A stretch of DNA of 54,532 nucleotides from Bacteroidales bacterium (lineage in GTDB: Bacteria > Bacteroidota > Bacteroidia > Bacteroidales > P3). Made by a program: the position numbers and the translations under genes. Below the pieces are notes generated by a model. It was not told where the DNA came from, made no database searches, and saw nothing but the letters and a program-made list of their open reading frames with translations. Every line of letters starts with the position of its first letter. The stretch's first letter is position 1. The stretch covers positions 1-54,532 of the forward strand of contig JAKSMS010000007.1 of NCBI GenBank assembly GCA_024400415.1, written 5' to 3'. Shown in pieces: positions 2,908 to 54,532 of this stretch.

Positions 2908-3918
2908 ATGGCAAAAGTTGCAATCAACGGTTTCGGCCGTATCGGAAGAATGTCATTCCGCGCAATCCTTGACAATCACCCAGAACTTGACGTAGTGGCC
3001 ATTAACGACCTCACCGATGCCAATACTCTTGCATACCTTTTCAAGTATGACTCTGTACATGACAATTTTCATGGTGAAGTACACGCTGATGGCGAGTATA
3101 TCGTAGTTAATGGAAAACGTATCCGCATCTATGCAGAACGCGACCCACAGAACCTTCCATGGAAGGAACTCGGCATCGACATCGTTGTTGAGTCTACTGG
3201 CTTCTTCAAGACCCGCGAACTGATGATGAAGCACATCAACGCTGGTGCCAAGAAGGTTATTCTTACCGTTCCAGCAGCCAAGGCCGCTGACGTAGACGCT
3301 ACCATCGTTATGGGCGTTAATGACAGCACCCTCACCAAGGATATGGCACTCGTATCAAACGCAAGCTGCACCACCAACTGCCTCGCACCAGTTGCTAAGG
3401 TTCTCAACGACAAGTTCGGCATCAAACGCGGCCTCATGAACACCGTTCATAGCTACACCAACGACCAGAAAATCCTCGACCAGCCACACAGCGACCTCCG
3501 TCGCGCTCGCGCTGCCGCAGTATCTATCATTCCTACTTCTTCTGGTGCAGCAAAGGCTGTAGGCCTGGTAATCCCTGAACTCATGGGCAAGCTCGATGGT
3601 TTCGCAATGCGCGTTCCTACTCCTGATGGCTCAGTAGTTGACCTCACCGCAGAACTCAACTGCAACGTTACTAAGGAAGAGGTAAACGCAGCAGTTAAAG
3701 AGGCTGCAGAAGGCGCAATGAAGGGTGTTCTCGAATACACCGAGGATCCTATCGTAAGCATCGACATCATCGACAATACCCACTCAAGCATCTTCGACAG
3801 CAAGCTCACCCAGGTAATGGATGGCAACTTCGTAAAGATCATCTCTTGGTACGACAACGAGAAGGGTTACAGCACCCGCGTAGGCGACCTCGCTGCCAAG
3901 CTGGCTACCCTCCTGTAA
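2908..3918 (+). CDS. gap: Type I glyceraldehyde-3-phosphate dehydrogenase
   Basis: A 336-residue GAPDH of normal length. The N-terminal Rossmann fold starts with INGFGRIGR, and the catalytic centre SNASCTTNCLAPV puts the nucleophilic Cys at residue 154. HSYTNDQ, DLRRARAAA and WYDNEKGYS near the C-terminus are family hallmarks. It oxidises glyceraldehyde-3-phosphate to 1,3-bisphosphoglycerate with NAD. Codon use is strongly biased to C-ending codons, as expected for a highly expressed gene. It stands alone: its own promoter lies upstream and a strong hairpin terminator directly follows. NAD rather than NADP use is inferred from Asp33 (AINDL) at the end of the second beta strand. Confidence 0.97.
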   Translation: MAKVAINGFGRIGRMSFRAILDNHPELDVVAINDLTDANTLAYLFKYDSVHDNFHGEVHADGEYIVVNGKRIRIYAERDPQNLPWKELGIDIVVESTGFFKTRELMMKHINAGAKKVILTVPAAKAADVDATIVMGVNDSTLTKDMALVSNASCTTNCLAPVAKVLNDKFGIKRGLMNTVHSYTNDQKILDQPHSDLRRARAAAVSIIPTSSGAAKAVGLVIPELMGKLDGFAMRVPTPDGSVVDLTAELNCNVTKEEVNAAVKEAAEGAMKGVLEYTEDPIVSIDIIDNTHSSIFDSKLTQVMDGNFVKIISWYDNEKGYSTRVGDLAAKLATLL

Positions 3919-3941
3919 TAGAATCTAACGAATCAAATTAT

Positions 3942-3971
3942 AAAAAAGGGAATAGCACTATTCCCTTTTTT
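3942..3971 (+). terminator. Rho-independent terminator after gap
   Basis: Perfect inverted repeat of GGGAATAG (3948-3955) and CTATTCCC (3958-3965), flanked by six A on the left and six T on the right. Confidence 0.85.
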
Positions 3972-3994
3972 ATATTCGTACACACCAAATACCA

Positions 3995-4885
3995 ATGAAA
4001 AGACTATTTCTCGCATTTGCAATAATCGCCTCAATGGCATCCTTCTGTTCCTGCAACAGCAATGGATCCTCATGCGAATCAGACACAACAACCTTTGTTG
4101 ACGACTATGGCGAGAGCGTATTCGTTCCCACCCACCCACAAAGAATCGTATCAGTATCGCCTGCCGTTACGCAGATCATCTTCGATCTTGGAGCCCAGGA
4201 CCTCTTGGTGGGCAGAACCGAATACTGCACTCATCCCGCCGAAGCGCTGCAAATCGAAAACATTGGAGGCATCTCCAACCTCAACATCGAGAAGGTTCTT
4301 TCCCTCAACCCAGATCTAGTCATTTCTGGATCTATGGTTCCCAAAAGCGCTGCTGATCAGATCCGGAACATGGACGTTCCATTCGTGAGTGTGATCGAAA
4401 AAGAGCACTTCAGCAATCTATACGACAATATCATGCGCATCGGAGTACTCACCAACCGACAGGAACAAGCCCAACACCTGTGCGACTCTATCCAAAAACA
4501 AATTGCCAATCTCACCCCAATAGACACAGCCAACAGACCAACCGTCTACTACGTAATAGGATATGGCAAAGGCGGCAACTTCACTGCAGGCGGAAACACT
4601 TTTATCGACGAGATCATTTCCATGGCCGGAGGCAGCAACATCGCCCATGACATAGAGGGATGGAGCTATAGCCTAGAAGCGCTAATGTCAGCCGACCCCG
4701 ACTGGATAATAGTGCGAAAGGAAGACTATCAAGGATTCTCAACTACCGCACCTTATACCAAACTGACTGCTGTCAAAAATGGAAATCTCGTAGTACTTGA
4801 AGAAAGTTCAATGCTCGACCTTCAAGTGCCACAAAACATAGAGGCGATAAAACTGCTCAACAAGAAGTTCTGTAATCACAAATAA
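3995..4885 (+). CDS. BtuF-like periplasmic binding lipoprotein (cobalamin/iron-siderophore type)
   Basis: A 296-residue protein with a lipoprotein-type signal peptide (about residues 1-20; MKRLFLAFAIIA..., Cys in FCSC). It has the two-lobed helical-backbone binding-protein pattern: QRIVSVSPAVTQIIFDLG (lobe 1 start), VGRTEYCTHPAEA, NIEKVLSLNPDLVI, a long linking helix (about 145-170) and a second lobe with WSYSLEALMSADPDWIIV. This is the ABC class III family that includes BtuF and FecB-type proteins. Family knowledge: it hands cobalamin or an iron chelate to a BtuCD-type importer. No permease or ATPase gene is next to it, so it is an orphan component here and its ligand is open. The downstream small lipoprotein is 29 bp away and may be co-transcribed. 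Confidence 0.8.
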   Translation: MKRLFLAFAIIASMASFCSCNSNGSSCESDTTTFVDDYGESVFVPTHPQRIVSVSPAVTQIIFDLGAQDLLVGRTEYCTHPAEALQIENIGGISNLNIEKVLSLNPDLVISGSMVPKSAADQIRNMDVPFVSVIEKEHFSNLYDNIMRIGVLTNRQEQAQHLCDSIQKQIANLTPIDTANRPTVYYVIGYGKGGNFTAGGNTFIDEIISMAGGSNIAHDIEGWSYSLEALMSADPDWIIVRKEDYQGFSTTAPYTKLTAVKNGNLVVLEESSMLDLQVPQNIEAIKLLNKKFCNHK

Positions 4886-4914
4886 CAATAAATCAAAATA
4901 TAATTATTAGTATT

Positions 4915-5355
4915 ATGAAAAGAATTGCAACTCTTATGATGGCCTTTGTCATGATCGGACTCGTGGCCACCTCTTGCGGATCATCTAACATGGCTGGCAA
5001 CACTGTTGCCTACGCCTCAGGATCCACTTGCGCCAAGGCTCTTACAGCCCTTCATTCTAGCAAAACAGCCAACGGAAGCATCAGCATCAGCAACGCTAAC
5101 GACGTGAGCAACATGCTGGCAGTAATCACCTGCTACACCCAGTTGCGCAACAACAAGGACAACGCCGAATACAAAAAGTCTTTCACCAATGGACTCATCG
5201 CCGGGTCCAATCTGATCAATGCCAGCAACGCCGGCACTATCGTAAATGGACTTCTTGGCGCCACCGGACTTGACGGAGTCAATGCCAGCAATATTGGGCA
5301 GAAAGTACAGACTGTAAGCACTATCATCACACTCCTTAATGCATTAAAGGGTTGA
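4915..5355 (+). CDS. Small Bacteroidales lipoprotein of unknown function
   Basis: A 146-residue protein with a lipoprotein signal (LVATSC, Cys about residue 21), so probably anchored in the inner or outer membrane. The mature part is Ser/Ala/Asn-rich and has a repeated feel: SISISNANDVSNMLAVI, then SFTNGLIAGSNLINASN and IVNGLLGATGLDGVNASN. This resembles small Bacteroidales lipoproteins with alternating Asn/Leu-rich helices seen in other genomes, but no function is known to me. It follows the BtuF-like gene by 29 bp and ends at a hairpin terminator, so the two form a likely transcription unit. No catalytic motif is visible. Confidence 0.75.
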   Translation: MKRIATLMMAFVMIGLVATSCGSSNMAGNTVAYASGSTCAKALTALHSSKTANGSISISNANDVSNMLAVITCYTQLRNNKDNAEYKKSFTNGLIAGSNLINASNAGTIVNGLLGATGLDGVNASNIGQKVQTVSTIITLLNALKG

Positions 5356-5380
5356 TACAAACCAAGCGCTTCTCAATAAT

Positions 5381-5411
5381 AAAAGAGGTTTCGGAAACGG
5401 AGCCTCTTTTT
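5381..5411. terminator. Bidirectional hairpin terminator
   Basis: AAAGAGG (5382-5388) pairs with CCTCTTT (5403-5409), with an inner GTTT/AAAC, and runs into T on the plus strand and into T (read from A) on the minus strand. It separates two convergent genes. Confidence 0.7.
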
Positions 5412-5431
5412 CTTTCAACGCAGCACGACCC

Positions 5432-6388
5432 TTAGGCCAAATATCCTAAAGCGCGGAAGACAAATATCCAAAATGTTAGTGTGAAGGCACTAAAGAAGGT
5501 GGTAAGAACGCAGATACTGGCGGTCAGACTGCCATCGTGGCCCATATTCTTGGCCATAATATAGCTGGCGGGAGTGGTAATGCTGCCTAGCATTACTATA
5601 AGAGCAATAAGCTTCTGATCCGTGAACCCCATCATGACTGCCAACGGGAGAAATATGGCCGGCATTACCAACAGCTTAATAGCAGCGGCCACCGAAGAGA
5701 GTCCGATATGTCCCAAAGCCTCTCCGCCTTTGAATCCTGCCCCAATTACGATAAGGGCTAACGGAGTAGTGAGGCTGGCAATGCTGGCTAGACCCTTATC
5801 AACCATCGTTGGGATTGGCAGTCTGACTAGACTGGCAACCAATCCTATCAAAATGCCCAATATAATTGGATTTGTGGCAATTCCCTTCAGACTGACAGAT
5901 ACGCTTTTCCACAATCCCATTTCTCGATTCCTATTAGGCGCCTCGACTATTAGAATGATTACGGCAAATATGTTATAGAGCGGCACCGCTCCAAGTATCA
6001 TCAGGCCCGACATGCTGCTTTCGCCATAAATATTCTGAATAAATGCTGTTCCCAATATGGCAGCCGACGACCGATAACAGCCTTGCACAAACTCGCCTAC
6101 CAGTTCTTTTCTACGGATAAAGAGACGTGCTAGCACCCATGTGACTGCAATACTTAGAAACGTTGCTATGGCGCAAAACAGCAAATAGCCAGCGTCAAAA
6201 TCCGTCCTTACGTCCACCTGGGTAAGGTCATGAAACAGCAACACAGGTATAGTAACCTTGAAAAGAAGCTTGTTGGCAACAGCAACAAATTCATCTGTAA
6301 GGAACCTATATCGTTTGAGCAGGTACCCTAACAGCATGATCAGGAAAAGCGGCACTGTGCCATTTAGGCTGAATAATAGATTTGACAT
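5432..6388 (-). CDS. AEC family transporter (auxin efflux carrier superfamily)
   Basis: A 318-residue integral membrane protein with about ten hydrophobic segments arranged as two five-helix halves. The first half begins NLLFSLNGTVPLFLIMLLGYLLKR; the second starts around KSVSVSLKGIATNPIILGILIG. The NPIILG motif and PLALIVIGAGFKGGEAL are typical of the AEC/membrane transport protein family. Some bacterial members carry malate, malonate or other anions, but the substrate cannot be read here. It lies 15 bp downstream of the Sel1-repeat gene on the same strand and is likely co-transcribed. No regulator or metabolic partner nearby hints at the substrate. Confidence 0.82.
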   Translation of the reverse strand: MSNLLFSLNGTVPLFLIMLLGYLLKRYRFLTDEFVAVANKLLFKVTIPVLLFHDLTQVDVRTDFDAGYLLFCAIATFLSIAVTWVLARLFIRRKELVGEFVQGCYRSSAAILGTAFIQNIYGESSMSGLMILGAVPLYNIFAVIILIVEAPNRNREMGLWKSVSVSLKGIATNPIILGILIGLVASLVRLPIPTMVDKGLASIASLTTPLALIVIGAGFKGGEALGHIGLSSVAAAIKLLVMPAIFLPLAVMMGFTDQKLIALIVMLGSITTPASYIMAKNMGHDGSLTASICVLTTFFSAFTLTFWIFVFRALGYLA

Positions 6389-6403
6389 TATTGAATGATT
6401 GGA

Positions 6404-7906
6404 CTATAGCTGTTCTGGCGTGATCAGCTTCTTTATGTTGCGTTTCTTCTCTTCAATTTGAATTTCTTCTTTCGAACGCTTCTCCTCAAAATACTTCTTG
6501 TGAAAATCTATGGCTGGCTGATATTTATGCCGAATAGCTTCCATAAGGTATTCATAAGCCATTTCCGTATTATAGATAGATGTGGGATGTCTGTATTGCA
6601 GGCTGGCATAACTGTACATCGACTCAATATGACCCATGTCCGCCGAGGTCCGATAATAGCGCAGCGCCTCTGCATTATCAGTCTTGCAGCCTTGTCCGTT
6701 CTCCTTGCATACTCCCATCATATAATGGGCATATAGATAATCACACAACTCCACAGATTTTGAGAAGTAGGCATAGGCAGAATCGTAGTTTTGTGCCACA
6801 TTTTGGCCAAGATAATACATCACACCCAAGCAATAATATCCGCGGCAATCCTTCTCTTTGATACACTTGGTCCAATACTGGGCAGCCTTTTGATAGTCTT
6901 GATCCACACCCATTCCGAAATAGCTGAGAATGCCAAGAGAATAGGACGCATCTACGTATCCCAGGGACTCTGCCTTCTTCCAATAGTCGTGAGCTTTAGT
7001 GTAGTCTTTTTCCACGCCATTGCCATAAAAATGATGAACTCCTAAATAAAAAAGCGCATCGGGAAAATCCTGTTGGGCTGCTGCCATATAATACACGTAT
7101 GAAGAGTCATAATGGTGTTCTGCCGACGACTGGTAATATAGCTTTCCAACAAAAGTTTGAGCATCAGGAAGACCGCTTTCCGCAGCCATCTTCATATATT
7201 GAAAAGCCTTTTTCAAATCCATCCCCACCACATAGCCCTCATAGTAGCATACTCCTAAGGCGTATTGCGCTTCAACGCATCCCGCATCTGCCGCCTTTTG
7301 ATATAGGCCTAGCGCCTTCAACTGGTTGGAATAGTAGCCTCTACCTTCGAAATAGATATTGCCAAGACGATACTGGGCATAGGCATCTCCCAAATTGGCC
7401 GCTGCCTGATACATATCCACTATCGGCTGATAAGTCTTCATGGAATAGTCGTCTTTGGGCACATGCTCCTCCATGATAAGGGCCGCCTTGCACATTGCGG
7501 GCGCATATTTCTGCTTGGCAGCAAGGTTAAGCCATTTTAAGGCCTCTTTCCAATCTGGACTTCCAACGAAACCCTCATTGAGGTAGATGCCTACTGTATA
7601 CTGGGCATACATATCTCCCAATTCGGCAGCACGCTTAAACCACTTGAAGGCCTCTGCGGAGTTTTGTTCCACAAGAGCACCCTCTTCATAAATAAGCCCT
7701 AGATTGTAGGCTGCCTCTATGCTGCCTGCCGACGCCGCCTTGCTCCAGTAGTAAAGCACTTTCGAAAAATCCTGCTCCGCTTGCGGGCAATAGTAATACT
7801 TCAGTCCTGTATTGTAGAGATACTTCACAGATGTTGTGTCCGAAGTCTGGGCAATAGCAGTCCCCATCAAGAAGAACGTAATTAATCCTATTAGCGAAGT
7901 TTTCAT
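6404..7906 (-). CDS. Sel1-repeat (SLR) exported protein
   Basis: A 500-residue protein with an N-terminal signal peptide (MKTSLIGLITFFLMGTAIAQ). Almost the whole mature part consists of about a dozen Sel1-like repeats of roughly 36 residues with the pattern A..YW.KAA..G..EA.Y.LG..Y..G, for example AAYNLGLIYEEGA, AQYRLGNIYFEGRG, AQYALGVCYYEG and ALFYLGVHHFYGNG. The C-terminus (last 40 residues) is charged and ends in KKLITPEQL. SLR proteins are alpha-solenoid scaffolds for protein contacts; a periplasmic or envelope location is inferred from the signal peptide. The upstream gene in the same direction is the GH2 enzyme, 46 bp away. No enzymatic domain is visible. Confidence 0.85.
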   Translation of the reverse strand: MKTSLIGLITFFLMGTAIAQTSDTTSVKYLYNTGLKYYYCPQAEQDFSKVLYYWSKAASAGSIEAAYNLGLIYEEGALVEQNSAEAFKWFKRAAELGDMYAQYTVGIYLNEGFVGSPDWKEALKWLNLAAKQKYAPAMCKAALIMEEHVPKDDYSMKTYQPIVDMYQAAANLGDAYAQYRLGNIYFEGRGYYSNQLKALGLYQKAADAGCVEAQYALGVCYYEGYVVGMDLKKAFQYMKMAAESGLPDAQTFVGKLYYQSSAEHHYDSSYVYYMAAAQQDFPDALFYLGVHHFYGNGVEKDYTKAHDYWKKAESLGYVDASYSLGILSYFGMGVDQDYQKAAQYWTKCIKEKDCRGYYCLGVMYYLGQNVAQNYDSAYAYFSKSVELCDYLYAHYMMGVCKENGQGCKTDNAEALRYYRTSADMGHIESMYSYASLQYRHPTSIYNTEMAYEYLMEAIRHKYQPAIDFHKKYFEEKRSKEEIQIEEKKRNIKKLITPEQL

Positions 7907-50547: not shown

Positions 50548-51564
50548 TTACACTATGGGCGAATTACTAGCTTCTATAATCCAATTCTGATTATAGGCAG
50601 GAGTTCCTTCCAAAAGGTTCATATAGCTAAAACATTTGGCCCCCATCTGGCTTGCATAGATCGATACTGACGAACTGAGCGAATAAAAGTCAGACGGATG
50701 TGCATTGATCATGTTTTCCAGAACGGCACTTGCTGGCAGCTGTTCTATTTCATTGCCAAAGTGGCGATGAAGCATATCGAGGTAGACCTGTCTGTGAGCT
50801 GTATTTTGAGGAGCATCAAATCTGGGGTGCATCTTATAAGCCACTTTCTGATAGTGGAACTGCTCCATGAAGGCGGCAACCTTGGCATATATATCGTCCA
50901 CTTGCTCATTGCTAAGCACATTATATAGCGGGTCCACCGAAATAATGGCATCTGGGTAACTATCAGACTCAGTCTTTTCAAATGGAATGCCCACCACCCT
51001 CAAGCAATCTTGGTGCATCGGGAATCCACTTTGCTGAGTGGCTATGCACCCTAGAAACTTTTTGTGGTCGGAACTGATGAAATGATTCTTTACGTCGAAC
51101 AAGCGCCGCCATATCGGACAGAGCAGTAGTTTGTAAATCCAATAACGATAGCCAGTAAAAGTCTGCGGGTTACAACGCAGATAGGAGGGAAAGCCGTCCT
51201 CTATCACATAGAAGCCCCTGCAATTGGATTTGGTTACCATAAGGCTAGTGATGTCGTTAGAACACACCTGGGTGTAGAAGATGAAGTCTTCTCCTCCAAG
51301 ATATGGATCCACCAGTTCGTCAAATTCGCGTATGTTGCGATTGGTCTGCATAATATGTCTGCCTGCGAAGACTCGCCCCGTCTTTTGGTCCACATTGTAT
51401 GATGTGCCAATCTGATGTGGGAATCGAGAGTAATACTGCTCCGGAATATGATAGTTACGCAAGAGAATGAAGATGCAGTCATCTGCAGCAATGTTGTCTA
51501 AGTCGGCGATGCGCTTAGATATATAAAAAGTCAGATGGCTTGATACGGAAAAGACATGTTTCAT
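50548..51564 (-). CDS. Polysialyltransferase-like glycosyltransferase
   Basis: A 338-residue protein without signal peptide. It carries the sialyltransferase-type motifs of the GT38/GT52 bacterial families: an acidic-acidic-glycine motif in YVIEDGFPSY (122-124), KMHPR with the HP pair (246-247) and a SSSVSIYAS serine motif (297-303). Inference: it transfers a CMP-activated acidic sugar onto a surface glycan. It overlaps the IMPase-like gene by 4 bp and lies in the same run as a NeuA-like cytidylyltransferase, which supports a nonulosonic-acid donor. Overall similarity is low, so the exact donor is open; capsule polymerisation or end-capping are both possible. It appears more A/T-rich than ribF by eye. 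Confidence 0.65.
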   Translation of the reverse strand: MKHVFSVSSHLTFYISKRIADLDNIAADDCIFILLRNYHIPEQYYSRFPHQIGTSYNVDQKTGRVFAGRHIMQTNRNIREFDELVDPYLGGEDFIFYTQVCSNDITSLMVTKSNCRGFYVIEDGFPSYLRCNPQTFTGYRYWIYKLLLCPIWRRLFDVKNHFISSDHKKFLGCIATQQSGFPMHQDCLRVVGIPFEKTESDSYPDAIISVDPLYNVLSNEQVDDIYAKVAAFMEQFHYQKVAYKMHPRFDAPQNTAHRQVYLDMLHRHFGNEIEQLPASAVLENMINAHPSDFYSLSSSVSIYASQMGAKCFSYMNLLEGTPAYNQNWIIEASNSPIV

Positions 51565-52268
51565 TTTACCAAGAATTTATATTTGATGCCAGGCAATAGA
51601 AATTCGCCTTTATAAGGCTTACCATCAATAAAGACTTCTCTACCATGTTCCAGCGCAAGGTTCATTCCTGGTAGAATGTCCCAAGAATAGCAGCCTTTTA
51701 GGTGCTGAAATTGGGCGTAACTTCCATGGATGACATTGTACATGTTATACATACAACACCCCATAATTCTAAATTCGAATCCGCCACCCAACTGAGCAAA
51801 GTCTTCGGGTGTCATATAGGAGGAAAGTCCACAGATTCTTGATCTTGGAATACGATGCAGTTCATCGCCTGTGCAGAGGCAGATATCTAGTTCTGGTAGA
51901 GCAATCATTGATTGGTAGTGCGTTCCTTTGCGATACACACTTACACCCACACCCCACTCTTTGAGTCCTGAAACAAAATTTTCTGTCCCGTCTATGGGGT
52001 CCACAGTGATTACATATTCCTCCTTGTTCAGCCTAGAGATGTCGTGATAAGACTCTTCAGAAATGAGCAGACAATTATTAACGTTGTTTTTTATCCAGTC
52101 GCCGACCAACTTTTCGCAAAGTAGGTCACCTTCCGATACGAATGAATTGTCGGACTTCAAAGTACCAGTGCTTCTCAGCGAGAGGATCTCGTTCAGGTGT
52201 TCCATAATCAGGGTGTATAGGCTGCGACAAATATCCATTGTATTAGTCATAAAGTGATGGTGTGACAA
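51561..52268 (-). CDS. Inositol-monophosphatase-family phosphatase
   Basis: A protein of up to 235 residues. Metal-binding motifs are ISEES (Glu near 71), VDPIDGTENF (90-97 by the longest start) and WDILPGMNLALEHG near residue 196. These are the three sites of Li-sensitive IMPase/FBPase-like phosphatases. The start is uncertain: ATG 52268 overlaps the previous gene by 26 bp, and Met7 at 52250 (overlap 8 bp) is a better candidate. In this cluster it may dephosphorylate a sugar-phosphate intermediate, analogous to the phosphatase step in sialic or Kdo-type sugar synthesis; that is inference. Related CysQ-type PAP phosphatases are an alternative. Confidence 0.82.
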   Translation of the reverse strand: MSHHHFMTNTMDICRSLYTLIMEHLNEILSLRSTGTLKSDNSFVSEGDLLCEKLVGDWIKNNVNNCLLISEESYHDISRLNKEEYVITVDPIDGTENFVSGLKEWGVGVSVYRKGTHYQSMIALPELDICLCTGDELHRIPRSRICGLSSYMTPEDFAQLGGGFEFRIMGCCMYNMYNVIHGSYAQFQHLKGCYSWDILPGMNLALEHGREVFIDGKPYKGEFLLPGIKYKFLVK

Positions 52269-53817
52269 ATCTGATGTCCATGTTCTGGCGCAAAGACTTC
52301 ATCTTGGCTGTCATGGCATCGTTTAGTATTTTATAGTGCTCTACGTCTTGAACAAATTTCAGGCTCTCTAGATAATAGTTGTCTTGGTTAGCCCTATAAC
52401 CATCCATGCCGGCCACAAAGATGGTGCTGACCTCCAACCTCTTCAGTAGGTTGATCAGCATCACCGAGGTGTTATCTCTAATGGCATCCTCCTCATTGAG
52501 TAGAGAACTGTAATTCACCACATAGAGGTTCGGCTCGTCAATAGAAATATTAGAGGTGCAAATCAAGTTCACCTTCCGCTTGTCAGTATTAAAAGTAGTG
52601 TTATAGCGTTTCAGGTTGCTCAAGAACACGAAGTCGGTCTCTAAAAAGTTAGGCACGAAGGTTGCCGAGATCACCAGGCACTCCTCCCTCTTCACCACAT
52701 CGAGGAGCTTCTCCACGTTGTCGTTCAGAGAAGGTCCCGGAGCTATCAGCATCACCTTGCGCCCCTTCACCTGATCCTTCAGCTGGGCAATGGCCTGAGT
52801 GTCGTCAATCTCGTTCGACTGGTATTCCAAATACTTTTCCTCGGCAATCTTCTTGTCAAAGAGCGAGCGCTTCTCGGGCTCTATCATCCTCAGTATGGCA
52901 CCTATGCTCTGTATGGTCAGAGTCTGCTTGCCGCTGAGGTAGGAGGCATAGTTCGGGTGGCAACCATTGATGGCTGCCAAATAGTAGGGCACAGAGTATC
53001 CCCAATCGTGTTCCGCCTTGATATTGAGTATATATTCATCTATCACCTCAAGCAGTGGTTCAATATTATACCTCCTAGATATGTGGTCGTTGATATAGTT
53101 GGCTATCAGCTCTGTGTTGAGGTTTCCAGCCCCTCTGCCCATGCCATATACAGAGGCATCGAGCGAAATCACGCGACTCGTCACTACCCCTACCAGGGCC
53201 TGGCAGTTCGAATACGAAAGCTGCAGATTGTTGTGGCTGTGGAAACCGATGTGGATGTTCTTATCAAGGTTGTGGTCTATCAGGTAGAAGAACCTCATCA
53301 CGTCCTGCTTGTGCATCAGTCCCAGCGTATCCACCAGGTAGAACGAATAGGGCTGCAGTCCGTTTACCTGATGGATGAGAGCCATCAGCTGCTCGTCAGA
53401 ATAGCTGGTGGTGCCCACCGGCTGCACAAACACCTTGTAGCCTTTATCCTTGATCTGGCGGCAGTATTCTATGGCCTCATCCACCTCATTGTAGTGGAAG
53501 GTAACCCTGATGCCGTCTATCGACTTGCCGTCATAGGGTTTCAACTGACTGATGTCATATTCTCCATAGCAGGCCATAGCCACATACATCGAGCAGCCAT
53601 GGTCTTGGGGCAGGTGCTCAGCAATCTGGTCCACCGTCGAGTAGAGCGAGAGGTCTGGGTCGTCGTTTCCGTCTTCCAAAAATCCGCACTCAATGATGTC
53701 GATATTCGAGCGGGTCAGTTGGGCGATGATCTTCTTGATGCCCAACCTGCCGAACTCGAAGTCGTTGATATACCCGCCATCGCGCAGCGTACAGTCCAAA
53801 ATCTGAATTCTATTCAC
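52243..53817 (-). CDS. DRE-TIM aldolase fused to a Maf/DUF115-like domain
   Basis: A 524-residue fusion. Residues 1 to about 300 are an HMGL-like DRE-TIM aldolase: DCTLRDGGYINDF (Arg12-Asp13), IIECGFLE, GFHSHNN metal His pair (193,195) and YGMGRGAGN. It is closest in pattern to 4-hydroxy-2-oxovalerate aldolase MhpE. The C-terminal 350-524 opens with VMLIAPGPSLND and continues with Rossmann-like strands (ECLVISATFVPNFLETDFVFLSNL would be the core), resembling the DUF115/MAF_flag10 fold. That fold is found in Maf enzymes linked to transfer of pseudaminic or legionaminic acid. Inference: the aldolase joins pyruvate to a sugar aldehyde. It lies 14 bp after the NeuA-like gene. Confidence 0.7.
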   Translation of the reverse strand: MNRIQILDCTLRDGGYINDFEFGRLGIKKIIAQLTRSNIDIIECGFLEDGNDDPDLSLYSTVDQIAEHLPQDHGCSMYVAMACYGEYDISQLKPYDGKSIDGIRVTFHYNEVDEAIEYCRQIKDKGYKVFVQPVGTTSYSDEQLMALIHQVNGLQPYSFYLVDTLGLMHKQDVMRFFYLIDHNLDKNIHIGFHSHNNLQLSYSNCQALVGVVTSRVISLDASVYGMGRGAGNLNTELIANYINDHISRRYNIEPLLEVIDEYILNIKAEHDWGYSVPYYLAAINGCHPNYASYLSGKQTLTIQSIGAILRMIEPEKRSLFDKKIAEEKYLEYQSNEIDDTQAIAQLKDQVKGRKVMLIAPGPSLNDNVEKLLDVVKREECLVISATFVPNFLETDFVFLSNLKRYNTTFNTDKRKVNLICTSNISIDEPNLYVVNYSSLLNEEDAIRDNTSVMLINLLKRLEVSTIFVAGMDGYRANQDNYYLESLKFVQDVEHYKILNDAMTAKMKSLRQNMDIRFVTPSLYD

Positions 53818-53831
53818 CCTTCAGCAGTCTT

Positions 53832-54485
53832 TTATTTTGCAAAATATTTCACATAAAGGGCTTCGGCCACGTCGAAGTCCTCTGGATTGTTGATGTCGGT
53901 AGCCTCTATTTTCGACACCTCAACTAGAAATGGCTTGTTGCCAATACGGCGGCGGTCCTTCTTGATGGTGTCTCTATTGTATATATACATGCCGCAGGTC
54001 TCCACAAACATCGGCTCCAGATCCTGGGTACGCGGGATAGCATCTGGACTATAGTTGAAGGGCTTGCCCTCCTTCCACAGGAACTCCTGCATCTTCTGCA
54101 CGGCCAGCGCTGAGTCGTAGCCCTTCTCAGCCACAGCCCTGATTCCAGTCTCAAAGCTTCCTGTCGAGATAAATGGAGCCGTGGCATGGGTGAGCACATA
54201 CACGTCGGCCTCCACCCTTTCGGCAAAGGTGGTCAGCACCTCGTTGAACGGGGTGGTCGAGAGGTCCAGATACGGATCTCGCTTCAAGAACTTCACCCCT
54301 TCTGGGATATATCGGCAGATTTCCTCACTGCTGCAATATACATAGATTTCGTCCAGTCCCTCCACATTCTTCAAAGTCTGCAGTATACAGCTTATCAATG
54401 GAGTCCCATCAGGAAAGGCTTTCGTGTTCTTGCCAGGGAGTCGCTCGTTGTTGAGCTTTATAGGAACAAATGCAACTACTTTCAT
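53832..54485 (-). CDS. Acylneuraminate cytidylyltransferase-family (NeuA-like) CMP-sugar synthetase
   Basis: A 217-residue nucleotidyltransferase. The CTP-binding N-terminus VVAFVPIKLNNERLPGKNTKAF (PGKN at 17-20), then EIYVYCSSEE, YVLTHATAPFIS and SALAVQKMQEFLW follow the CMP-NeuAc synthetase family. A Glu-Thr-Cys-Gly-Met-Tyr segment and final DINNPEDFDVAEAL also match. It should activate an acidic sugar as the CMP derivative. The exact sugar (sialic, legionaminic, pseudaminic or Kdo-like) cannot be told. It heads the visible part of the run; its promoter and any synthase gene upstream lie outside the window. Confidence 0.85.
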   Translation of the reverse strand: MKVVAFVPIKLNNERLPGKNTKAFPDGTPLISCILQTLKNVEGLDEIYVYCSSEEICRYIPEGVKFLKRDPYLDLSTTPFNEVLTTFAERVEADVYVLTHATAPFISTGSFETGIRAVAEKGYDSALAVQKMQEFLWKEGKPFNYSPDAIPRTQDLEPMFVETCGMYIYNRDTIKKDRRRIGNKPFLVEVSKIEATDINNPEDFDVAEALYVKYFAK

Positions 54486-54532
54486 ATTTCGATTATCGAT
54501 TATTAGCTTTTGATTTTTAAGTTTTCCATATC

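Follow-up and report, generated by a model that had tools for sequence, protein, structure and literature searches.

How might a bacterium make a cytidine monophosphate (CMP)-activated sugar acid with an aldolase that uses pyruvate? The question is raised by one end of a contig from a Bacteroidales bacterium (JAKSMS010000007.1, GenBank assembly GCA_024400415.1), analyzed over its full length of 54,532 nucleotides; this stretch, the window, is the whole of contig C67 of genome G000 (1.84 Mb, 81% complete). To our knowledge, the known syntheses of CMP-sialic acids and of CMP-activated 3-deoxy-D-manno-octulosonic acid (Kdo) use a phosphoenolpyruvate (PEP)-dependent synthase. The last 4 kb of the window hold four minus-strand genes, overlapping or closely spaced, encoding a CMP-sugar-acid synthetase, an aldolase with a C-terminal extension, a phosphatase and a glycosyltransferase (Table 1). 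We put the probability that this cassette makes and transfers a CMP-activated 3-deoxy-2-ulosonic acid by way of a pyruvate aldolase at roughly 60%, the product being more likely Kdo-like than a nine-carbon sugar.

In the proposed pathway, the aldolase would condense pyruvate with a phosphorylated sugar aldehyde to give a 3-deoxy-2-ulosonate phosphate, taking the step that KdsA or NeuB would perform with PEP. The phosphatase, of the inositol monophosphatase (IMPase) fold, would then release the free ulosonate, followed by its activation to CMP-ulosonate by the NeuA-like enzyme and transfer onto a surface glycan by the PF07388 protein. An earlier reading, made from the sequence only, had described the four open reading frames as one tight minus-strand run, and all were found as described, the first and second 14 bp apart, the second and third overlapping by 26 bp and the third and fourth by 4 bp. 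The sequence-only reading also held that the pyruvate-type aldolase was the only visible carbon–carbon bond-forming enzyme of the run, and this stood. The 10 kb past position 54532 that it proposed to inspect are not part of the assembly, and the remaining contigs were searched for NeuB in their place: the NeuB family (PF03102) gave no matches in the 81%-complete assembly, in a search whose control was positive in 9 of 14 genomes. KdsA was not found in the gene run either, the KdsA-like pieces of this genome lying at the ends of contigs C55 and C36.

Table 1 The window cassette and the genes beside non-aldolase relatives of its synthetase (aa, amino acids).
Feature	Location	Position	Strand	Basis or remark
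CMP-sugar-acid synthetase, NeuA/PseF-like subfamily, 217 aa	Window	53832..54485	-	PF02348; heads the run within the contig
Aldolase with C-terminal extension, 524 aa	Window	52243-53817	-	HMGL-like plus weak MptE-like
DRE-TIM aldolase domain, HOA-like, about residues 1-325 of 524	Window	52843..53817	-	PF00682, PRK08195, PDB 3dxi/4lrs/1nvm
C-terminal domain, weakly MptE/DUF115-like, about residues 326-524	Window	52243..52842	-	PF01973, below cut-off
IMPase-fold sugar-phosphate phosphatase, 235 aa	Window	51561..52268	-	PF00459; TTG start as listed
Glycosyltransferase, bacterial polysialyltransferase type, 338 aa	Window	50548..51564	-	PF07388, marginal score
KdsA and KpsF beside synthetase	G054, G071, G111 C245			
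KpsF alone beside synthetase	G056, G501			
KpsF alone, one gene away from synthetase	G339 C8			
KdsA-family paralogue (50% to that of L073), ribulose-phosphate 3-epimerase, KdsC-like phosphatase, NeuA-like synthetase	G107 (L122)	3916-7395		

The aldolase domain belongs to the DRE-TIM/HMGL-like family, with 69.6 bits against PF00682 (cut-off 29) and both the R-D and H-x-H motifs. It is nearest to the 4-hydroxy-2-oxovalerate aldolases (HOA) and falls short of their specific models, with 82.8 bits for the HOA subfamily PRK08195 (cut-off 229) and 67.2 bits for TIGR03217 (cut-off 286); the best citramalate synthase model reached 45.0. Arg-12, Asp-13, His-193 and His-195 are invariant in all 14 aligned sequences, that of the window included. 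From the alignment with PDB entries 1nvm and 4lrs, we take the last three to be metal ligands and Arg-12 to be the arginine of these enzymes. The closest solved structure is 3dxi, the N-terminal domain of BVU_2661 from Bacteroides vulgatus, with 4lrs and 1nvm as further PDB relatives.

The C-terminal domain scored 26.5 bits on its own and 23.0 bits within the whole protein against the MptE-like/DUF115 model (PF01973, cut-off 34.6), with neither a GT42 nor a Maf model among its reported matches. It is present in ten fused proteins, including that of the window, and absent from six relatives of 346–349 aa. The suggestion that a DUF115/Maf-like domain implies nonulosonate transfer thus lost its footing, and the proposed pathway leaves the domain unexplained. 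At locus L080 (11795-12388), an MptE/DUF115-like protein of 197 aa (26.3 bits, below the cut-off) is encoded as a separate gene near a 514-aa aldolase and its synthetase.

The window cytidylyltransferase matches CTP_transf_3 (PF02348) with 47.9 bits (cut-off 22.6). It is nearest to NeuA/PseF, well below curated thresholds (57.9 bits where the PseF equivalog asks for 205.7), and scores 27.3 bits against 193 for the KdsB type; its best PDB relative is PpNeuA (9t4z). A separate true KdsB of the same genome lies on contig C1 (224.8 bits for the kdsB model, cut-off 155.2), and 11 of 12 genomes tested carry a high-scoring cytidylyltransferase (175–220 bits) apart from the cassette, so that the cassette copy is a dedicated one. 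The phosphatase belongs to the Inositol_P family (PF00459, 71.3 bits, cut-off 27), and its translation shows the motifs SEES, DPIDGTENF and SWD, presumably with their usual roles in this family. The transferase barely passes the cut-off of A-2_8-polyST (PF07388, 24.0 bits against 23.3), a family that we take to be CAZy GT38; a sequence search of the PDB gave it no relative at E ≤ 1. The EDG, HP and SSS motifs of bacterial sialyltransferases that the sequence-only reading had pointed out were confirmed: E122-D123-G124, H246-P247 and S298-S299 do not vary among the window transferase and three relatives (4/4).

To place the cassette in a wider context, the surroundings of 33 aldolase-family genes were read. 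Of these, 24 were kept in three sugar-linked classes: a fused class (10; the window, L024–L029, L073, L074 and L128), a class of 346–349 aa without the C-terminal domain (6; L030–L033, L075 and L076) and a class of 508–519 aa whose C-terminal domain is of a separate kind (8; L034–L036 and L080–L084). The nine set aside were L077–L079 (316–317 aa), which form their own clade in the tree, and, by class and size and outside the tree, L037–L040 (338–364 aa, 28–31% to the window) and the tandem pair L087 (363 and 365 aa). The counts leave out L019–L021 and most matches of a 393-genome draw from the order. A CMP-sugar synthetase immediately adjoins 21 of the 24 sugar-linked aldolases, a figure that depends on the class grouping and becomes 21 of 33 over all genes read. 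In the remaining three, the synthetase lies three genes away (L074), is absent from the stretch read (L029), or the locus is cut by the contig end (L128); beside the nine set-aside genes, BLAST recognized no CMP synthetase in the stretch read. A search for the same neighborhood in other Bacteroidales had been proposed, and the aldolase–synthetase pairing does recur, at a frequency indicating that the gene set is more than chance. The fused form itself is patchy: besides the window, matches were found in G009, G038, G020, G111 and G132 (two pieces) among 190 genomes of the family, full-length matches in G192 and G373 in the order draw, and only G898 in a draw of 395 phylum genomes at E ≤ 1e-70. 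The closest named relative, and the one locus returned by a single-sequence contig search with the aldolase, is L024, from a Bacteroidales metagenome-assembled genome from horse feces.

Around the aldolase, the partners are exchanged. A phosphatase is present in the cassette of 9 of 10 fused loci, being an IMPase in the window, HAD_2 in L024–L027, L073 and L074, a Hydrolase_6 HAD protein in L128 and KdsC fused to YhcH/DUF386 in L028. All six loci of the 346–349-aa class have a KdsC-type phosphatase above the subfamily cut-off, with a YhcH domain in L030–L033, none in L075 and the gene cut by the contig end in L076. Swapping occurs even among close relatives: the aldolases of the window, L024 and L073 form a clade with support 100/100 and are 68–69% identical over the aldolase domain, and the window pairs its aldolase with a NeuA-like synthetase and an IMPase where L024 and L073 have a KdsB-like synthetase and a HAD phosphatase. 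The L024 synthetase just reaches the KdsB subfamily cut-off (255.4 against 255) and just misses the kdsB equivalog (148.6 against 155.2). That the slots around one aldolase accept phosphatases of unrelated families and synthetases of different kinds points to phosphate removal and CMP activation of a sugar acid as the functions of these slots. The KdsC-YhcH/DUF386 proteins of L028 and L030–L033 (5/5 scanned) resemble the N-acetylneuraminate anomerase model below its cut-off (77.2 bits against 160 for L028, 4145-5062), which points to an ulosonic acid. A PF07388-type transferase is found in the window, L024, L026 and L027, and a PF07922 (GT52)-type transferase in L025, L028, L030–L033 and L034.

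The nature of the acid is suggested by relatives of the window synthetase. An alignment search of the 190 family and 393 order genomes gave 17 places above 250 bits (the G107 match has an internal stop): nine lie beside an aldolase, seven beside KdsA and/or the arabinose-5-phosphate isomerase KpsF, and one beside both (G192, locus L073). All seven relatives away from an aldolase thus have KdsA and/or KpsF close by (Table 1). Since the place next to one synthetase family is filled by either the aldolase or KdsA, the best guess shifts from a nine-carbon sugar to a Kdo-like ulosonic acid, and the 'nonulosonic' part of the sequence-only reading was not upheld. Its broader idea of an aldol-made sugar acid fared better, given the coherent CMP-ulosonate-type set and the lack of NeuB in most cassette genomes (below). 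In the aldolase group, L033 has KpsF adjoining both synthetase and aldolase, with no KdsA recognized in the 20 kb read; in at least this relative a likely acceptor is D-arabinose 5-phosphate, made by KpsF, and the product would then be Kdo-8-phosphate or a stereoisomer of it. The synthetase tree groups the L073 sequence with six of the seven sequences linked to KdsA/KpsF in a supported clade (98/95). The seventh, the G107 synthetase (L122, on a long branch), falls outside this clade, and so do the nine synthetases linked to an aldolase. These separate lines suggest products that are related, not identical.

The KdsA-linked runs are of interest in themselves. KdsA, KpsF and a NeuA-like synthetase occur together in L118 (4474-7320, with KdsC in addition), L119 (5210-7600) and L121 (1512-3887), and the genome of L121, G111, has a separate high-scoring cytidylyltransferase elsewhere; such runs possibly represent a second, NeuA-type line of CMP-Kdo synthetases. 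The G107 locus perhaps makes another ulosonate from a different pentose phosphate.

The same association gives rise to the most serious alternative, which we nevertheless consider unlikely: that a housekeeping KdsA supplies the window cassette, which would serve a Kdo-type capsule or glycolipid, the aldolase doing other work, such as modifying or elongating a sugar acid, and taking no part in the carbon–carbon bond-forming step of the activated sugar. A member of the DAHP/KDO8P-synthase family (3-deoxy-D-arabino-heptulosonate 7-phosphate and Kdo-8-phosphate synthases) is present in 12 of 12 genomes searched, the window's cytidylyltransferase subfamily does occur beside KdsA/KpsF, and in L073 KdsA, KpsF, two synthetases and the fused aldolase share one run. 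The family, however, does not tell DAHP synthase from KdsA, and the only member in G132 looks DAHP-like by score. In L073, moreover, the NeuA-like synthetase falls within the KdsA/KpsF clade, leaving the KdsB-like one as partner of the aldolase, as in L024, L026 and L027; and 16 of the 17 places have aldolase or KdsA/KpsF, not both (the lone KpsF of L033 set aside).

It is still less probable that the activated molecule is some other pyruvate-derived acid, such as a short 4-hydroxy-2-oxo acid or a branched product formed with a thiamine pyrophosphate (TPP) enzyme. HOA, the nearest characterized aldolases, presumably make short hydroxy-oxo acids, and acetolactate-synthase-like TPP enzymes, which the proposed scheme does not explain, are found in 8 of the 24 loci. 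The company of the aldolases nevertheless consists of what we take to be parts of sugar-acid pathways, namely NeuA/KdsB-type CMP activation, KdsC-YhcH, the KpsF of L033 and transferases of the polysialyltransferase type. The TPP enzyme is split into two genes that adjoin the aldolase in all six loci of the 346–349-aa class (L032 10603-12239; L030, L031, L033, L075 and L076).

That the window belongs to an ordinary NeuB-dependent nonulosonate pathway, with NeuB in the unassembled part of the genome, is very improbable. The genome is 81% complete, the contig ends 47 bp above the first gene, and a UDP-GlcNAc-2-epimerase-family gene lies on contig C23 of the same genome. NeuB was tested in 15 genomes with a fused or 346–349-aa-type aldolase (G000, G009, G020, G021, G023, G038, G092, G094, G111, G132, G192, G308, G373, G432 and G898; the genome of L024 was left out), and three have it, namely G038 and G898 (both on another contig) and G373 (at the same locus, L074). 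Against this, NeuB is absent from the other 12, including 6 of the 8 that are at least 90% complete, and across the 24 loci as far as read it was recognized in L074 only. Least probable of all is that the aldolase works in the direction of breakdown on a sugar acid: aldolases are reversible and many pyruvate aldolases, as we understand the family, are catabolic, yet the regular companion of the aldolase here is an activating enzyme, frequently joined by a transferase, and the loci appear rich in glycosyltransferases.

Several observations weigh against an aldolase-made ulosonate, besides the three cassette genomes with NeuB and the TPP enzymes. Position 16, where HOA have the histidine after LRDG that we take to be the catalytic base, is Tyr in 13 of the 14 aligned aldolases, the window included, and Cys in L028. 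The separate synthetase clades imply that the product need not be Kdo itself. No phosphatase was recognized in the eight loci of the 508–519-aa class, four of which (L034 9198-11769, L035, L083 and L084) have a PfkB gene resembling 2-keto-3-deoxygluconate kinase, below cut-offs in the two scanned. A PF07388 or GT52 transferase was recognized in only 11 of the 24 loci and in none of the other 13; neither a synthetase nor a phosphatase was recognized near the fused aldolase of L029; and in L074 an HpaI-type aldolase adjoins the fused one, with NeuB about 2.7 kb away. The structure models, from two-row alignments of the window and L024 proteins, are poor: the mean predicted local distance difference test score is 37.5 for the transferase and 51.9 for the aldolase, too low for its C-terminal domain or active site, and the Foldseek matches of the latter model (metabolic TIM-barrel enzymes among the matches listed, 3dxi first) add little to the sequence result. 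On balance, a NeuB-less acidic-sugar pathway by aldol condensation, ulosonic and probably Kdo-like, is the best available description.

Among known systems, the Kdo pathway (KdsD/KpsF-KdsA-KdsC-KdsB) shares with the proposed cassette slots for aldehyde supply, carbon–carbon bond formation, phosphatase and CMP activation. The window has a DRE-TIM aldolase for KdsA, an IMPase for KdsC and a NeuA-like enzyme for KdsB, and pyruvate would replace PEP. It resembles the NeuB-dependent sialic, legionaminic and pseudaminic acid pathways in its NeuA/PseF-like activation and polysialyltransferase-like transferase, and differs in that no NeuB was found in its own genome. With HOA (DmpG, BphI; 1nvm, 4lrs) the aldolase shares the superfamily and, by alignment, the conserved metal ligands and arginine; it differs in the Tyr for His, the extra C-terminal domain, the sugar-gene context and the lack of an aldehyde dehydrogenase among the four genes. 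BVU_2661, whose structure is entitled 'putative aldolase' and carries no function in that title, belongs to the 508–519-aa class, which adjoins CMP-sugar synthetases in 8 of 8 loci; it matches L034 with 484 bits and the window protein with 92.

Passages of PMC9858101 report putative 4-hydroxy-2-ketovalerate aldolase genes in Campylobacter jejuni capsule loci and, in the group 5 capsule locus, a putative aldolase together with a sialyltransferase-type gene, a likeness by annotation; these passages assign the aldolase no function. Passages of PMC3989065 hold nothing relevant. No description of such a pathway was among the matches listed in a literature search that covered few subscription journals, so that this absence is weak evidence.

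Other features of these loci are recorded here. The window contig (54486-54532) and L024 (1-49) both break less than 50 bp from the first cassette gene, perhaps owing to repeats or strain variation there; the downstream neighbor of the cassette is a riboflavin kinase/FAD synthetase gene. Recent transfer was considered from base composition and rejected: the cassette GC content of 0.47, against 0.50 elsewhere, lies within the range of 4-kb windows (0.458–0.542) and gives no signal. Among the relatives set aside, the 316–317-aa aldolases of L077 (3732-4995), L078 (8909-10229) and L079 (8543-9930) stand beside a small gene judged from its sequence to be chorismate-mutase-like (3/3 loci). In L126 (7632-11319) and L127 (4981-9277), a CMP-sugar synthetase lies near an HpaI-type aldolase and a protein that is HAD-like by its first residues, possibly a third kind of aldolase-based cassette.

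Beyond the window, we rate at about even odds the broader proposition that Bacteroidales and some other Bacteroidota carry an undescribed family of pathways in which a metal-dependent DRE-TIM pyruvate aldolase replaces KdsA or NeuB in the synthesis of CMP-ulosonic acids, for surface sugars not on the present list. Surveys predict nonulosonic acids by the presence of NeuB. If the proposition is true, such surveys would miss a pyruvate-aldolase route, and the acidic ulosonic sugars of Bacteroidales would be under-counted. A role open to experiment would also fall to the orphan aldolases represented by BVU_2661, whose structure has been solved under a title that names no function.

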